The translations under genes and the position numbers were made by a program. Below, piece after piece: positions 4,286-59,222 of a stretch of 64,000 bases of DNA; position 1 is the first letter of the stretch; every line of letters begins with the position of its first letter. This DNA comes from Actinacidiphila rubida (lineage in GTDB: Bacteria; Actinomycetota; Actinomycetes; Streptomycetales; Streptomycetaceae): positions 1 to 64,000 of the forward strand of contig NZ_FODD01000037.1 in NCBI RefSeq assembly GCF_900110255.1. Reading direction: 5' to 3'. Below the pieces are notes generated by a model. It saw nothing but the letters and a program-made list of their open reading frames with translations, was not told the origin of the DNA and searched no databases.

Positions 4286-5896
4286 TCACTCCTGGGGTTC
4301 GAGGCCGGCCCGCAGCAGGCCGTAGGCGTAGGCGTCGTCCAGGGCCTGCCAGGACGCGGCGATGACGTTGTCCGCTACGCCCACCGTGGACCACTCACCG
4401 CTGCCGTCGGTGGTGGTGATCAGCACCCGCGTGGTGGAGTCGGTGCCCGAACGGCCTTCCAGGATGCGGACCTTGTAGTCGACGAGGGCGAAGCCGGCCA
4501 GTTGCGGGTAGATCCGCTCCAGGCCCACCCGCAGCGCGCGGTCGAGCGCGTTGACCGGGCCGTTGCCCTCGGCGGTGGCGACGATCCGCTCCCCCTTGGC
4601 CCACACCTTGACCGTCGCCTCGTTGGCGTGGATGCCGTCGGGGCGGTCCTCGATGATGGCGCGCCAGGACTCGGTGCGGAAGAAGCGGCGCGGGGTGCGT
4701 CCGCCGGCCTGCTCGACCTCACCGCGCATCAGCAGCGCGAACGAGGCGTCCGCGGCCTCGTAGGTGTAGCCCTGCAGCTCACGCTCCTTGACCCGGTCGA
4801 CGACGCGCTGCACCAGCGCGCGGTCGCCACCGAGGTCGATGCCCAGTTCCCGGCCCTTGAGCTCGATGGACGCGCGCCCGGCCATGTCGGAGACCAGCAT
4901 CCGCATGGTGTTGCCGACCAGTTCGGGGTCGATGTGCTGGTACAGGTCCGGGTCGATCTTGATGGCCGAGGCGTGCAGCCCGGCCTTGTGCGCGAACGCG
5001 GACACGCCGACGTACGGCTGGTGGGTGGACGGCGGCAGGTTGACGACCTCGGCGATGGCGTGCGAGATCCGCGTCATCTCGCCGAGCGCGCCGTCGGGCA
5101 GCACCCGGCGGCCGTGCTTGAGCTCCAGCGCGGCCACGACCGGGAAGAGGTTGGCGTTGCCGACCCGCTCGCCGTAGCCGTTGGCGGTGCACTGCACGTG
5201 GGTGGCCCCGGCGTCCACCGCGGCCAGGGTGTTGGCGACCGCGCAGCCGGAGTCGTCCTGGGCGTGGATGCCCAGGCGGGCGCCGGTGTCGGCGAGCACC
5301 AGCCCGGTGACGGCCTGCACCTGGGCGGGCAGCATGCCGCCGTTGGTGTCGCACAGCACGACGACCGAGGCCCCGGCCTCGTGCGCGGCGCGGACGACGT
5401 CGGTGGCGTAGGCGGCGTCGGCCCGGTAGCCGTCGAAGAAGTGCTCGCAGTCCACGAAGACCCGGCGGCCCTGGGCGACGAGGTAGGAGACGGTGTCCCT
5501 GACCATCTCCAGGTTCTCCTCGAGCGTGGTGCGCAGGGCCAGCTCCACGTGCCGGTCGTGCGACTTGGCGACCAGTGTGATGACCGGGGCGCCGGACTCC
5601 AGCAGCGCGTTGACCTGCGGGTCCTCGGCGGCCGAGGCGTTCGCCCGGCGGGTGGCGCCGAACGCGACCAGGACGGAGTTGCGCAGCTTGAGCTCGCCGC
5701 GGGCCCGGGCGAAGAACTCGGTGTCGCGCGGGTTGGCGCCGGGCCAGCCGCCCTCGATGAAGCCCACCCCGAAGTCGTCCAGGTGCCGCGCGATCGTCAG
5801 CTTGTCCGCGACGGTGAGGTTGATCCCCTCACGCTGGGCGCCGTCGCGCAGCGTGGTGTCGAAGACGTGGAAGCCGTCGTCGAGTTCCGTGGTCAT
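4286..5896 (-). CDS. cimA: Citramalate synthase / 2-isopropylmalate synthase-family enzyme
   Basis: A 536-aa DRE-TIM metallolyase. The N-terminal barrel shows DTTLRDGAQ (the R-D metal and catalytic pair), FIEGGWPGANP, the HAQDDSGCAVAN metal histidine region and GYGERVGNANL. The C-terminal 150 residues form the LeuA-type allosteric domain. Length and the FIEGGWPG variant fit citramalate synthase (pyruvate plus acetyl-CoA to citramalate, a threonine-independent route to isoleucine). Orthologues are often labelled LeuA-like, so substrate remains inferred. The ATG at 5896 follows AGGAG by 9 nt; upstream in-frame codons have no ribosome site. A candidate attenuator precedes it, and ilvE lies upstream on the same strand. 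Confidence 0.88.
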   Translation of the reverse strand: MTTELDDGFHVFDTTLRDGAQREGINLTVADKLTIARHLDDFGVGFIEGGWPGANPRDTEFFARARGELKLRNSVLVAFGATRRANASAAEDPQVNALLESGAPVITLVAKSHDRHVELALRTTLEENLEMVRDTVSYLVAQGRRVFVDCEHFFDGYRADAAYATDVVRAAHEAGASVVVLCDTNGGMLPAQVQAVTGLVLADTGARLGIHAQDDSGCAVANTLAAVDAGATHVQCTANGYGERVGNANLFPVVAALELKHGRRVLPDGALGEMTRISHAIAEVVNLPPSTHQPYVGVSAFAHKAGLHASAIKIDPDLYQHIDPELVGNTMRMLVSDMAGRASIELKGRELGIDLGGDRALVQRVVDRVKERELQGYTYEAADASFALLMRGEVEQAGGRTPRRFFRTESWRAIIEDRPDGIHANEATVKVWAKGERIVATAEGNGPVNALDRALRVGLERIYPQLAGFALVDYKVRILEGRSGTDSTTRVLITTTDGSGEWSTVGVADNVIAASWQALDDAYAYGLLRAGLEPQE

Positions 5897-6024
5897 AGCC
5901 GTCTCACTCCTGTCAGGTGGATGGGTGTCCCCCGGGCGGCCTGAACCCACCCGGAGGTTCCGACTCCACTTGCCCCCAGCTCTCCCGTGCGAATTCGCCT
6001 CCGGCGCGGATGGGCCGGGAAACG

Positions 6025-6137
6025 AAAAAACCTCTCGCGGATGCGAGAGGTCTGCACGCGGGTCTGGGACACGGTGACGCTTCACTGGGGTCAGTGGGGC
6101 GTCACTGCGGACCGGCGTGCCTGCGGCCAATAATCAT
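6025..6137 (-). promoter_or_regulatory. Candidate leader-peptide attenuator upstream of cimA
   Basis: In RNA order: a 12-codon ORF (6137-6102) reading M-I-I-G-R-R-H-A-G-P-Q-stop, with two adjacent isoleucine codons. Next is a stem-loop (GTGACGC at 6099-6105 with 6074-6080, plus an inner CACTG/CAGTG stem), extended by pairing of 6110-6120 with 6054-6064. Last is an intrinsic terminator (CCTCTCGC/GCGAGAGG, 6031-6050) followed by six U (6025-6030). Segment 6054-6060 could alternatively pair with 6036-6044 and break the terminator. There is no Shine-Dalgarno before the ATG; a GTG five codons earlier, in frame, follows CAGACT by 6 nt and could be a leaderless start. Confidence 0.55.
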
Positions 6138-6140
6138 GGC

Positions 6141-6368
6141 GGGCGAGGACACGTTCGCAGTCTGCCACACCGCTCCGCTCGCGCCGCACCCGTCTCACCA
6201 TCCGGTCCCCCCCGCCCGCCCCTCGGTCACCCCCCGCCGGGGCAGGGGCTCGCCGTCCTGGCGGGGGGGGTCGCCCTGTGCGGGCGAACGGCAACCCTCC
6301 GGGGCAGCCCCTCCCGCGCAGGGCGAACCGCTGCCCGGGGAGGGCGAACCGCTGGGAGAGGGGCGTCG
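6141..6368. repeat. Intergenic region with repeated GGCGAACCGC words between ilvE and the cimA leader
   Basis: No gene is seen here. Positions about 6262-6356 hold short imperfect repeats: a GTCGCCCTGTGCGGGCGAA hairpin, then CAGGGCGAACCGC and GAGGGCGAACCGC. The same words recur around 48.8-49.1 kb. Upstream of them is a C-rich tract (6205-6240). A plausible role is transcript end for ilvE, but no U-tract hairpin is obvious. Confidence 0.45.
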
Positions 6369-7457
6369 TCAGACGCCCAGGGGGTGCATCCAGGTGTGCG
6401 CGTCAGCGGAACGGCCGGTCTGGATGTCGAGGAGCGCGGAGCGCAACCGCATGGTGACCTCGCCGGGCTGCCCGTCCGCGACGGACCAGTCCGCACGGGT
6501 GGACTTCACCGACCCCACGGGAGTGATCACCGCGGCGGTGCCGCACGCGAACACCTCGGTGAGCGTGCCGTCCTCGTTGCCCCGCTTCCAGTCCTCGACG
6601 CTGATCCGGCCCTCGCTCACCTCGTAGCCGAGGTCCGCGGCGATGTTGAGCAGCGAGTCGCGGGTGATGCCCGGCAGCAGCGAGCCGGACAGCTCGGGGG
6701 TGACGATGCGGTCCCCGTACACGAAGTACAGGTTCATGCCGCCCATCTCCTCGATCCAGCAGCGCTCGATCGCGTCGAGCCACACGACCTGGTCGCAGCC
6801 GTGCTCGATGGCCTGGGCCTGGGCGACGAGGGACGCGGCGTAGTTGCCGCCGGTCTTGGCCGCGCCGGTGCCGCCGGGCGCGGCGCGCACGTACTCCTCG
6901 GACAGCCAGACGGAGACCGGCTTGACGCCGCCGGAGAAGTAGGCGCCGGCCGGGGAGGCGATGACGAGGAAGAGGTACTCGTTGGCGGGGCGGACGCCAA
7001 GGCCGACCTCGGAGGCGAACATGAACGGCCGCAGGTACAGCGACGCCTCACCCTGGCTCGGCACCCACGCCTTGTCCTGCCGCACCAGCGCGTCGCACGC
7101 GGCGATGAAGGTCTCGACGGGCAGTTCGGGCATCGCCAGCCGGCGGGCGGACGCCTGGAAGCGCTCGGCGTTGGCCTCGGGCCGGAAGGTGGCGACGCTG
7201 CCGTCGGGCTGGCGGTACGCCTTGAGGCCCTCGAAGATCGTCTGCGCGTAGTGCAGCGTCATGTTGGCCGGGTCGATGGACAGCGGCGCGTACGGGACGA
7301 GCTCCGCGTCGTGCCAGCCACGGCCCTCGGTCCACCGGATGGTGACCATGTGGTCGGTGAAGTGGCGTCCGAAGCCGGGGCTGGCGAGGATCGCTTCGCG
7401 CTCGGCGTCGGCCAGTGGGTGCGACGAGGGCTTGAGCTCGATCGTGGGCGTCGTCAT
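6369..7457 (-). CDS. ilvE: Branched-chain amino acid aminotransferase
   Basis: A 362-aa fold-type IV PLP aminotransferase making the last step of Ile, Leu and Val synthesis (2-oxo acid plus glutamate). Family features are [14 protein letters not shown], the early Tyr/Phe substrate pocket, the PLP lysine in [27 protein letters not shown] and the phosphate-binding [13 protein letters not shown]. Length is as expected. The ATG at 7457 follows AAGGA by 8 nt; the open frame continues upstream but without family sequence. It lies between leuB and cimA, all on the minus strand, forming a branched-chain amino acid block with separate transcripts suggested by the gaps. Confidence 0.96.
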
Positions 7458-19416: not shown

Positions 19417-19450
19417 AAAAAACCCCTCGTGCCGTGAGGCAAGCGAGGGG
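19417..19450 (-). terminator. Attenuator terminator of the ilvBNC leader
   Basis: CCCCTCG/CGAGGGG stem (19423-19429 with 19444-19450) extended by TGCC/GGCA, followed on the minus strand by six U. It lies between the leader-peptide stop and ilvB, the position of a classical attenuator terminator. Confidence 0.85.
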
Positions 19451-19487
19451 AGCGCGCCGGTGGGGTGCGAGGCGGTGTGAGCCTCGG

Positions 19488-19529
19488 TCAGCCGACGCGC
19501 TTTCCAAGTACGAGAATTCGGGTGCGCAT
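19488..19529 (-). CDS. ilvBNC leader peptide (13 aa)
   Basis: ATG CGC ACC CGA ATT CTC GTA CTT and onward, encoding M-R-T-R-I-L-V-L-G-K-R-V-G then TGA. All three branched-chain amino acids occur consecutively (I-L-V-L), the hallmark of an attenuation leader. It matches what I recall of the conserved actinobacterial ilvB leader. GAAGG lies 8 nt before the ATG. Shortage of charged Ile/Leu/Val tRNA should stall the ribosome here and favour read-through of the terminator at 19417-19450. Confidence 0.85.
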   Translation of the reverse strand: MRTRILVLGKRVG

Positions 19530-19536
19530 GGCCCTG

Positions 19537-19566: not shown

Positions 19567-22437
19567 GCGGGTGGGACGGGCGTCTCATCATGTGAACGCC
19601 GTGGCCGGGGTGGCGGACCGCAGGAACCGACCTGCTCACGGGCGGTCTCCCCGGCCGGGACGGGGGCCGGGACGGGCCCCTGGACGGCCGCGGGCACGGG
19701 GTAGACGCCGCGGGCGAGCGAGCCGCGCAGGCGCCGCTCGTCCAGCGGTCCGGCGAAGGCCATGCCGACGCCCTGAGCGCAGCCCAGGTCGCGCAGTGCG
19801 TGCACCTGCTCGGGCCGGTCCACCCCCGCCGCGACGGTGCGGATGCCCAGGTCCTGGGCGATCCGCAGCAGCCCGCGGGTGACCGCGTGCTGGCGGCCCT
19901 GCTCCGCGACGCCCTCCACGAAGCAGCGGTCCAGCTTGAGCACGTCGACCGGCAGGGCGCGCAGCACCGCGAGCGCGCCGTGTCCGCGGCCGAAGCCGCC
20001 GAGCGCGATCCGCACCCCGCGCCTGCGCAGCCCGGACAGCCGGCGGCCCAGCTCGTCGTGCGGGATGTGCGGGTCGCCGCCGGCCAGCTCCAGGACCAGG
20101 GCGCCGGGGGGGCAGCTCGTGCCGGTCGAGCAGCGACTCGACGGTGCCGGCCGGCAGCTCGCGGTGGAACAGCCGCCGGGTGGACAGCCGTACCGTGACC
20201 GGGACGCGGTGGCCGGCGTCGTACCGCCGCGCGGCCTGCTCCACGGCCTGCTCCAGCAGCCACCGGGCCGGTTCCAGGCTGCGCTCCCCCGCGCCGGCCG
20301 GCGCGTCCGCGCCGTGCAGGAAGTCGGCCGGCGTGCTGGGGAACCCGGCCGCCGAGCGCCATCGCGGGTGCGCCTCGACGCCGGCGATCCGGCCGCCCGC
20401 CAGCTCCACCACCGGCTGGTGCAGCAGGGTCATCTCCCCTTCGTGCAGCGCCTTGCGGAGGCGTCCGGCCAGCTCCGTGCGGCGCACCACGTCGGCCTGC
20501 AACTGCGGGGCGTACAGCTCCACCCGGCCCTTGCCGGCCTGCTTGGCGCGGTACATCGCCAGGTCCGCGTTGCGCATCAGCTCGCCGGGGGTGTCGCCGG
20601 AGCGGGCGAGCGCGATGCCGATGCTCGCGCCGACCCGCACCTCGCCGCCCTCGACGCGGTACGGCCGGGACAGGGCGCTGCGCAGCCGGTCGGCGATCTC
20701 GCGGACCTGCTGCTCGCGGAACTCCTCGTGGCGGGCGCCGGAGCCGCTGATCAGCACCGCGAACTCGTCGCCGCCGAGCCGGGCGGCGGTGTCGCCGGAG
20801 CGCAGCGCCTCCCGCAGCCGGCGCGCGGCCTGGGTGAGCAGGTCGTCGCCGGCCTGGTGGCCCGCGGTGTCGTTGACCGCCTTGAAGCCGTCGAGGTCGA
20901 CGTAGAGCACGGCGGCGCGGCCGTCGGCGGCCCGCCGGCCGCCCAGGGCGTTGCCGAGGCGTTCGGTGAACAGCGCCCGGTTGGGCAGGTCGGTGAGCGG
21001 GTCGTGCGAGGCGTTGTGCTGCAACTGGGCCTGGAGCGCGACGCGTTCGGTGACGTCGCGGCTGTTGAAGATCAGGCCGCCCTGGAAGCGGTTGACGCTG
21101 GACTCCACGTGCAGCCAGCCCTCGTGTCCGTCGCGCGCGTGACCGGAGCGGATCCGGCACTCGATGCGGGTGGCGGGCTCCTCCCCGGGCGGCGCGGCCA
21201 GGAAGCGGCGCACCTCGTGCACGACCCGCCCGAGGTCGGCGGGGTGGATGTGCGCGGCCAGCTCGGTGCCGACGAGTTCCTCCGGGTCGCGCCCGTAGAC
21301 GCCCTTGGCGGCGGGCGAGACGTAGCGGAGCACGCCGCTGGGGGCGGCGATCATGATGACGTCGCTGGACCCCTGCACCAGGGACCTGAAGTGGCTCTCC
21401 TTCTGGGCCAGTTCCTGGGTGAGGGAGATGTTGTCCAGCAGCATGATGCCCTGCCGGACCACCAGCGCCATGACCACGGTGCAGCCGGTGAAGAGCACGA
21501 CCCGGTCGCACTTCTGGCCGGTGATGACGTTGTAGAGGATGCCCAGGGTGCAGACGGTCGCGGCCAGGTACGGGGTGAGGGCGGTGAACGAGCCGGTGGC
21601 CTTGCGGGTGGCGCCGGCCGGGCGGCGCGGCACGGCGTGCTGCAGGCGGCTGCCGACCCAGGGCGCGTACGCCATCAGCAGCGCGCCGGCGAACCAGCCG
21701 GCGTCGAGCACCTGCCCGGAGCGGTAGTGGGCGCGCAGCAGCGGCGAGGTGAACAGTCCGTCGCACAGCACGGTCAGGGCCAGGGCCGCGATCGCGGTGT
21801 TCACCGCGGCGCGGTTGGCGGCCGAGCGCCGGAAGTGCAGCGCCAGCACCATGCTCACCAGCACGATGTCCAGCAGCGGGTAGGCCAGCGAGAGCGCGAG
21901 GCGGGCGGTGCTGGGGCCGTCGAGCTGCGCGGCGCGGGCCAGCGCCAGGCTCCAGGACAGGGTGAGCAGCGAGCCGCCGATCAGCCACGTGTCCAGGGCC
22001 AGGCACACCCAGCCGGCCCGCGTCACCGGGCGCTTGGCGAGCACCAGCAGGCCGATCACGGCGGGCGGCGCGAACAGCAGGAAGCAGAAGTCGGCGGCGG
22101 AGGTGCGCGGCACGGGTTCGCGCAGCACCACCTCGTACCAGCCCCACACGGCGTTTCCGGAGGCGAGCATGGCGGAGGAGATCGCGAACAGGACCCAGGC
22201 GGGGCGGTGCGGTCCCCGCGTCCTGCGGGCGTACAGCAGCGCGGACACGGTGGCCGTCACGGAGGCCGCCGACAGCCCGAAGTCGCCCATGACCAGGGCG
22301 ACTTCGCTGGAGCCCCAGCCGAGGGCGGCGCCGGCGGTGTAGCCGCCGCAGAGCACCGCGAGGAGCAGTTGCGGCAGGAGCCCGCCGCGGCTCGCGGGGC
22401 GCACGGGTGGGAGCACCGCCGCGCTGGTGGCGCTCAC
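19563..22437 (-). pseudogene. Membrane PAS-GGDEF-EAL c-di-GMP protein, frameshifted in the EAL domain
   Basis: From the GTG at 22437: about seven to eight membrane helices (residues 20-330), a PAS domain (about 345-465), then a GGDEF domain with an intact RLGGDEF active site (555-559) and an RxxD inhibitory site (546-549). An EAL domain follows. After ESLLDRHELPP the frame breaks at a run of seven C (20106-20112); six C would restore LVLELAGGDP and the rest of EAL, read in another frame to 19563. The EAL part is degenerate: EAL is EAH, the DDFGTG metal site is GGFGRG and AEGVE is AAGVD. It therefore looks like a cyclase with a non-catalytic EAL. It could be a real frameshift, a slippery site or a sequencing error. 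It lies upstream of ilvB. Confidence 0.75.
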
Positions 22438-58803: not shown

Positions 58804-59014
58804 GTCGTCGCCGTCCGCCCTCGTCCGCCCTCGTGTGCCCTGGTCCGGCCCGGTCCGCGCCGGTGCGGCGAAGTCCGCCGTGGTGCCGTGGGGGCACTGA
58901 CCTGCTGCCCGGGAAAATCTTAGGGCCTGGCGCGGACAGCGGGCCCGGGGGCGGGCACCCGCGACACGGGCGTGCAATGATGTCTGGCACAACTTGCATA
59001 CCGGCCGTTCGAGG

Positions 59015-59222
59015 CCGCGCGGGAGAGTTCCGACCCTGTCCGGGCCGGGCGCCGAAGGAGCAAGTCCTCCCTTGAATCTCTCAGGCACAGATACCGCGCG
59101 GGCGAGGCAGATCTGAAAAGCGGAGGGGCCGCAGGGCTCCTCTCACCCAAGGTGCAAGCCGCGGGCCCGCGTCGGGTTCACGGTGAACCTCTCAGGTTCC
59201 GATGACAGATGGGGAGGCCGCT
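59015..59222 (+). ncRNA. Glycine riboswitch (tandem aptamers)
   Basis: The first aptamer starts at CGCGCGGGAGAG (about 59017) and has the conserved core GCCGAAGGAGCAAG, CTTGAATCTCTCAGGCA and AGATCTGAAAAGC. The second, about 59121-59222, has CTCACCCAAGGTGCAAG, GTGAACCTCTCAGGTTC and GATGACAGATGGGGAG. A short linker separates them. It sits in the gcvT leader; glycine binding is expected to turn on the glycine-cleavage genes. About 70 nt follow before gcvT with no clear terminator, so control may act at translation. Confidence 0.93.

Follow-up and report, generated by a model that had tools for sequence, protein, structure and literature searches.

A candidate isoleucine-responsive transcription attenuator upstream of cimA in Actinacidiphila rubida and other Actinomycetia

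The cimA gene commits carbon to isoleucine via the citramalate route, and the locus described here raises the question of whether, and by what means, its transcription is tied to the supply of that amino acid. The DNA analysed, referred to as the window, is a stretch of 64,000 nucleotides from Actinacidiphila rubida (contig NZ_FODD01000037.1, positions 1 to 64,000). On its minus strand ilvE stops at 6369 and cimA starts at 5896, and the gap is occupied by a candidate leader element that combines a short ORF with a long hairpin and a terminator. A preliminary description of the sequence proposed an attenuator with an Ile-Ile leader peptide in this gap, and we consider it very likely that the cimA leader is an isoleucine-responsive, ribosome-mediated transcription attenuator. 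The features concerned are as follows.

4286–5896, minus strand: cimA, citramalate synthase (TIGR00977 above cutoff)
6025–6053, minus strand: intrinsic terminator; core stem 6050–6043 with 6038–6031, extended 6053–6028, T tract 6030–6025
6036–6060, minus strand: previously proposed antiterminator, 6060–6054 with 6044–6036; possible, not supported; 7/7 pairs in the window
6054–6064, minus strand: strand 2 of the leader hairpin, GACCCGCGTGC; covariation with 6110–6120
6074–6105, minus strand: inner hairpin enclosed by the 1:2 stem and overlapping the leader stop; minimum-energy fold
6102–6152, minus strand: leader ORF, GTG start, product MSSPAMIIGRRHAGPQ, stop TGA 6104–6102
6110–6120, minus strand: strand 1 of the leader hairpin, GCACGCCGGTC; covariation with 6054–6064
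6129–6134, minus strand: control codons ATT ATT (Ile-Ile); adjacent Ile codons in 46/50 CimA-selected loci
6159–6169, minus strand: extended −10-like element TGTGGCAGACT, 6 nt before GTG 6152; columns conserved in 61 sequences
6192–6203, minus strand: box GGATGGTGAGAC upstream of the leader promoter; TGAGAY in 60/62 family-set elements
19417–19535, minus strand: ilvB leader element, MRTRILVLGKRVG; ORF 19488–19529; covariance model R1 24.9 bits

The downstream gene is cimA, as had been supposed: its product scores 620.9 bits against TIGR00977, the NCBIfam citramalate synthase model (cutoff 450), and lies below the cutoffs of the isopropylmalate synthase models. SCO5529 is presumably the S. coelicolor homologue. 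A search of 61 genomes with the CimA protein gave matches at E ≤ 0.001 in all 61, though some of these are not CimA, and upstream sequence was taken for 50 loci (L002–L051; L001 duplicates L002), one each from 50 of these genomes, chosen by CimA similarity only. The Ile codons are conserved across relatives: in 46 of the 50 loci the element has a pair of neighbouring Ile codons (35 ATT-ATT, 6 ATT-ATC and 5 ATC-ATT). The remaining four, namely L027 with Met-Ile-Met, L039 and L041 without an element and L042, which is cut by the contig end, were left out of the 204 elements compiled in all. ATT makes up 81 of the 92 Ile codons in the 46 leaders; in nine coding sequences of the window, Ile is ATC in 173 cases of 173. 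The rare ATT may have been kept because slow decoding sharpens the response.

The short ORF with two adjacent ATT codons is present on the minus strand, its codons (6152–6102) reading GTG TCC TCG CCC GCC ATG ATT ATT GGC CGC AGG CAC GCC GGT CCG CAG TGA. The preliminary description began it at ATG 6137, directly before ATT ATT (6134–6129). This segment, 6102–6137, stands as the 3′ part of a longer ORF, but the start is probably GTG 6152–6150. Of 203 elements, 202 have a start codon 12–24 nt upstream of the Ile codons, the only range of distances tried. For distinct upstream sequences, a distance of 15–21 nt is found in 61/61 of the family set and 133/135 of the rest; a start in frame at a distance of 3 nt, of the ATG 6137 type, occurs in 63 of 203 elements. 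The family set consists of L002–L036 and L057–L085 and represents the window's own family (f1), which we take to be Streptomycetaceae; L037, also f1, was counted in the other set. Among its 61 distinct sequences the start codon is GTG in 59 and ATG in 2.

When these 61 sequences were aligned on the start codon, the motif TGTGnCAnACT ended 6 nt before it and no Shine-Dalgarno-like columns were seen, which together suggest a leaderless transcript. The cimA leader transcript thus probably starts at GTG 6152, judging by sequence. Leaderless transcripts have been reported for several S. lividans leaders (PMC8079986, accessible part). The same −10-like region is less sharply conserved outside the family set, and a sigma-70 consensus scan that included a −35 element found no promoter for the leader. 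The TGAGAC box lies about 28 nt before the −10-like element, with no clear −35. TGAGAY is found no more than about 104 nt ahead of the Ile codons in 60 of the 62 elements of the family set, compared with 16 of 142 others. The box precedes both leaders in the window, at 6192–6203 (minus strand) for cimA and at 19582–19593 (minus strand) for ilvB. An initial assignment as an LtbR/NdgR site was dropped: the box is unlike the NdgR motif in the accessible part of PMC4340878, where SCO5529 does not appear, and unlike the NdgR/LtbR consensus in that of PMC8222616. Because these published motifs are dissimilar, we name no regulator for it.

Strand 1 of the leader hairpin pairs with strand 2 at 10 of 11 positions, leaving one C·C mismatch, and this pairing of 6110–6120 with 6054–6064, read by eye in the preliminary description, shows covariation beyond shuffles. 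The terminator, with the sequence CCTCTCGC-ATCC-GCGAGAGG followed by six T, was likewise rightly recognised, although its extent is corrected here to 6053–6028: the AGA between strand 2 and the core stem can pair into the T tract, giving 11 pairs. A consensus scan of 5880–6400 found this one terminator-like site (shuffle mean 0.0, sd 0.2). The segment 6158–6025 folds at −67.0 kcal/mol, whereas 300 dinucleotide shuffles average −39.3 (z = −8.2).

Comparative evidence for the structure comes from a MAFFT alignment (A1) of 26 elements hand-picked for diversity from the 46. The 1:2 hairpin has standard pairs in 97.7% of cells and changes on both sides in 6 of its 10 pairs. Hairpin and terminator together exceed 500 of 500 shuffles in cells paired, in double-change pairs and cells and in covariation score, and slid versions score far lower; in further pair types they do not exceed the shuffles, 338 of 500 being as high. 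For the terminator alone, double changes are found in only 1 of 8 pairs. The compensatory changes sought in both stems are found in the hairpin and scarcely in the terminator. Covariation is accompanied by a leader ORF whose reading frame is conserved as far as the Ile codons, so that neither of the comparative findings that would have told against the attenuator was obtained. Beyond those codons the frame can differ: L024, L025, L030 and L031 read on as VIIMDSARRSAVSAP with strand 1 unchanged. With the nucleotides kept but the frame altered in one clade, it is the RNA and the Ile codons that are conserved, rather than the peptide. The hairpin starts 4–9 nt after the last Ile codon in 203 elements and the terminator 0–3 nt after the hairpin in all 204, a tight geometry that is partly by construction, because the patterns and model used for compiling also favour the hairpin-terminator context.

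How widely is the element distributed? The covariance model R1 matches 196 of 394 Actinomycetia genomes, in 81 of 138 genera, at E ≤ 0.01, and cimA is found at E ≤ 1e-120 in 310 of the same genomes; 192 have both, 118 only cimA and 4 only the R1 match. In all 101 genomes for which both positions were compared, the match shared the strand of cimA and lay 26–227 nt upstream of it. In the four matched genomes without cimA, the element precedes ilvB (G061), ilvB and leuA (G103), a leuA-like gene (G085) and leuS (G295). When 39 of the 118 cimA-only genomes were searched again with looser filters, 13 gave a match at E ≤ 0.01, before cimA (6), a threonine-dehydratase-like gene (5), ilvB (1) and leuS (1). 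With 118 of 310 cimA-bearing genomes lacking an R1 match and only six regained from these 39, the cimA element is widespread yet by no means universal.

Other samples bear on the same point. A pattern scan of named genomes returned at least 119 stretches (L086–L204), with the element upstream of cimA in 110 of those listed; L094 and L192 (stretch end), L113 and L130 were left out, as were L118, L123, L137, L195 and L196, whose records are named non-actinobacterial. The genera among the matches listed include Micromonospora, Kribbella, Actinokineospora, Herbidospora, Nonomuraea, Catenulispora, Jiangella and Salinispora. The selecting pattern demanded ATTATT, so this set is uninformative on the Ile codons. 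L066 and L080 were missed by the regular expression and matched by R1, both beside cimA; L053–L056 are weak matches within the window's own genome, L053 being ilvB. All of 20 diverse loci fetched by place (L205–L224) have cimA downstream, one of them (L213) with a single Ile in the leader. The model found another 21 cimA loci, with adjacent Ile codons in 15 and not in 6: L226 has Met-Ile-Met, L230 and L251 one Ile, L260 Val-Ile, and L238 and L240 Ile-Val-Ile, that of L240 having been read by eye in a stretch where the scan found no start.

Weaker R1 matches precede ilvB, leuS, leuA and threonine-dehydratase-like genes, and the codons mostly match the gene. The 46 loci kept from this search comprise 21 before cimA, 7 before ilvB, 5 before leuS, 2 before leuA, 5 before threonine-dehydratase-like genes, 2 before a small protein whose weak ACT match falls below the cutoff, and 4 that are chance-like. 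The leaders of leuS and leuA carry runs of Leu codons, those of ilvB a mixture of branched-chain codons. The leuS leaders are MRAVRLLLSEPR, MQAVRLLLGRPR, MRHGLLLTGPR, MRVLLLTGPR and MATHFLLLGRPR, the gene being called from model matches below cutoff to partial proteins at L248 and L250 and by sequence reading at L242, L247 and L263. The ilvB leaders include MRIPRLVVG, MSHTTVVVIRRTG, MRRILVLVST and MHLTRDLVIP; at L249 the script found no leader and at L236 none was sensible. The window has an ilvB of its own (NF005860, 1109.4 bits, cutoff 881), whose leader MRTRILVLGKRVG uses ATT for Ile and shares the upstream box TGATGAGAC with the cimA leader. The leuA-like leaders are MTNLLLT and MKHLLLIESARH; at L241 and L246 (element from 1501, minus strand), in genomes without cimA at E ≤ 1e-120, a Leu-Leu-Leu leader, a hairpin and a terminator precede a leuA or leuA-like gene, called by model at L246 and by 34% identity to CimA at L241. 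This matching of control codons to genes on a common scaffold is the best argument that sensing takes place through translation.

Two smaller groups of loci were also observed. L253, L254, L256, L259 (element from 1501) and L262 (from 946) come from five genomes of one family, and in them the element precedes a threonine-dehydratase-like gene, called by threonine ammonia-lyase models below cutoff at L254, L256, L259 and L262 and by 59% identity at L253. Their leaders have a single Ile-Thr, as in MPHQLMAIT, and this may be an unreported ilvA attenuator. At L229 and L244 (element from 1501, minus strand), the leaders MFALVIIM and MFTPRIII precede a small protein, about 50% identical between the two loci, which at L244 has an ACT-domain match of 17.9 bits (cutoff 27); it could be a branched-chain sensor under its own attenuator.

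The leader ORF, Ile control codons, 1:2 hairpin and intrinsic terminator of an attenuator are thus all found upstream of cimA, in an arrangement conserved among relatives. In the mechanism we favour, the transcript would start at GTG 6152 and a ribosome would translate the 16-codon leader behind RNA polymerase. With ample Ile-tRNA the ribosome would pass both ATT codons, reach the stop and leave; 6120–6110 would then close on 6064–6054 and the adjoining terminator would stop transcription before cimA. With scarce Ile-tRNA the ribosome would stall at ATT ATT, 8 nt from the hairpin base, and hold that base open, so that polymerase would read through into cimA more often. The leaderless start, the stalling and the direction of control are what we infer; since the arrangement of Ile codons, hairpin and terminator has been kept in many related soil bacteria, cimA is probably turned up when isoleucine is short.

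A classical mechanism would include an antiterminator, and the preliminary description suggested that 6054–6060, once freed, pairs with 6036–6044 to disrupt the terminator. This pairing can be drawn in the window, with 7 pairs and a 2-nt bulge, but comparison does not support it. All 7 pairs form in the window and in 11 of the other 25 rows of A1, with 3–6 in the remaining rows, several distant ones having 3–5, and covariation across the 26 rows is no higher than in shuffles. In a swap test on the 168 distinct sequences among the 204 elements, region-2/terminator duplexes were weaker between true partners than between swapped ones (−6.89 vs −7.38 kcal/mol), and 1000 of 1000 permutations were at least as strong as the true partners. 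For the same 168, masking 4–6 nt of strand 1, in imitation of a stalled ribosome, raised upstream pairing of the terminator 5′ arm from 1–2% to 25–43% before the 3′ arm was complete; stems with permuted base pairs were nearly as effective under masking (0.378 vs 0.348 and 0.394 vs 0.369; 100 distinct elements), and once complete the terminator prevails in at least 95% even with the hairpin base masked. The mechanism may involve a weak, lineage-specific, kinetically acting antiterminator or may do without one. An alternative pairing, GGUCCGC with GCAGACC (6112–6106 with 6056–6050), was dropped, as 6 of its 7 pairs form in just 12 of 26 rows, with 4–5 in 6 rows and 0–2 in 8.

Could the structure simply be the 3′ terminator of ilvE, the short ORF being there by chance? 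The ilvE gene ends at 6369 on the same strand, and the region 5880–6400 has no second terminator-like site. However, the element tracks cimA and not ilvE, which lies within 1.5 kb upstream in only 30 of 62 family-set and 29 of 116 other elements with enough upstream sequence, and a terminator for ilvE would account for neither the conserved Ile codons nor the covarying hairpin; we regard this explanation as very unlikely. Any short translatable ORF before a gene also invites the idea that its nascent peptide arrests the ribosome, or that it is translationally coupled to cimA. Here, however, the peptides are dissimilar apart from Ile (MSSPAMIIGRRHAGPQ, MKHYRVIIS, MTSSVLIIGS, MQHQPQIITACAPAPEQR), a different frame is used in one clade, and in the window 205 nt separate the leader stop from cimA; to this explanation we give the least credence of all.

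Hardly better placed is the suggestion that a T-box, a riboswitch or a protein-bound leader senses isoleucine directly, with the ORF incidental. Unusual T-boxes do occur before ileS in Actinobacteria (PMC1262725, accessible part). Against this, Rfam gives no match to the leader at gathering thresholds, and at E up to 10 the region 5850–6350 has two chance-level matches, on the opposite strand only; moreover, related scaffolds have different control codons before different genes. At gathering thresholds the only match in the window is a glycine riboswitch (RF00504) at 59010–59106 on the plus strand (66.2 bits, gathering 32). Ribosome-mediated attenuation is thus our preferred reading of the cimA leader. 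It could be extended to a single compact leaderless scaffold in Actinobacteria (control codons, 4–9 nt, GC hairpin, 0–3 nt, terminator), re-used before cimA, ilvB, leuS, leuA and threonine dehydratase by codon exchange and lacking a dedicated antiterminator, in which a stalled ribosome would keep the base of the hairpin from closing, and the hairpin, once closed, would itself favour pausing or termination at the abutting terminator; this broader scheme we consider rather doubtful.

In our search of the open-access literature we found no report of a cimA attenuator. The survey in PMC1262725, in its accessible part, names other genes and states that conserved structures were absent upstream of other pathways, and the table of eight S. 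lividans leaders in the accessible part of PMC8079986 has none for cimA. The present data point to a switch of translation-reading appearance at cimA in about half of the sampled Actinomycetia genomes. Its many divergent copies offer a natural experiment on an old puzzle: the branched-chain leaders of these bacteria resemble attenuators, but altering codons of the ilvB leader in S. coelicolor reportedly changed nothing (cited in PMC1262725, accessible part), and no conserved antiterminator was found here either. The S. coelicolor result calls for caution, whilst the ilvB1 attenuator of M. tuberculosis, for which the accessible part of PMC13236596 describes premature 3′ ends and a codon-dependent reporter, is evidence that such elements act.

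Among known systems, the trp leader of Streptomyces and Corynebacterium has a leader ORF, repeated control codons, hairpins and a terminator as at cimA, but its codons are Trp, and it is described as a case of classical attenuation with a conserved antiterminator (PMC1262725, accessible part), whereas covariation, swap and permutation tests found none in the cimA leader. The LEU element before leuA shares with cimA a leader ORF with control codons and a homologous enzyme gene. It is described in the same source, as far as accessible, as a pseudoknot whose base stem pairs the Leu codons with the Shine-Dalgarno box; the cimA element and the leuA elements of L241 and L246, in contrast, end in a terminator. 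The leuS leaders of Streptomyces (leuL2) have the geometry of the cimA leader but carry Leu codons and precede a tRNA synthetase gene; that of L248, MRAVRLLLSEPR, matches the LeuL2 peptide of S. lividans exactly (PMC8079986, accessible part). The ilvB (ilvBNC) leader attenuators of Actinobacteria (ilvL), described in the accessible parts of PMC1262725 and PMC8079986, likewise combine a short ORF of branched-chain codons with a hairpin and a terminator, although their codons are mixed Ile, Leu and Val and the gene is a different one. In the window itself, the ilvB leader matches R1 at 24.9 bits and has an upstream box similar to that of cimA. Of the known systems, the actinobacterial leaders of ilvB and leuS stand closest to that of cimA.
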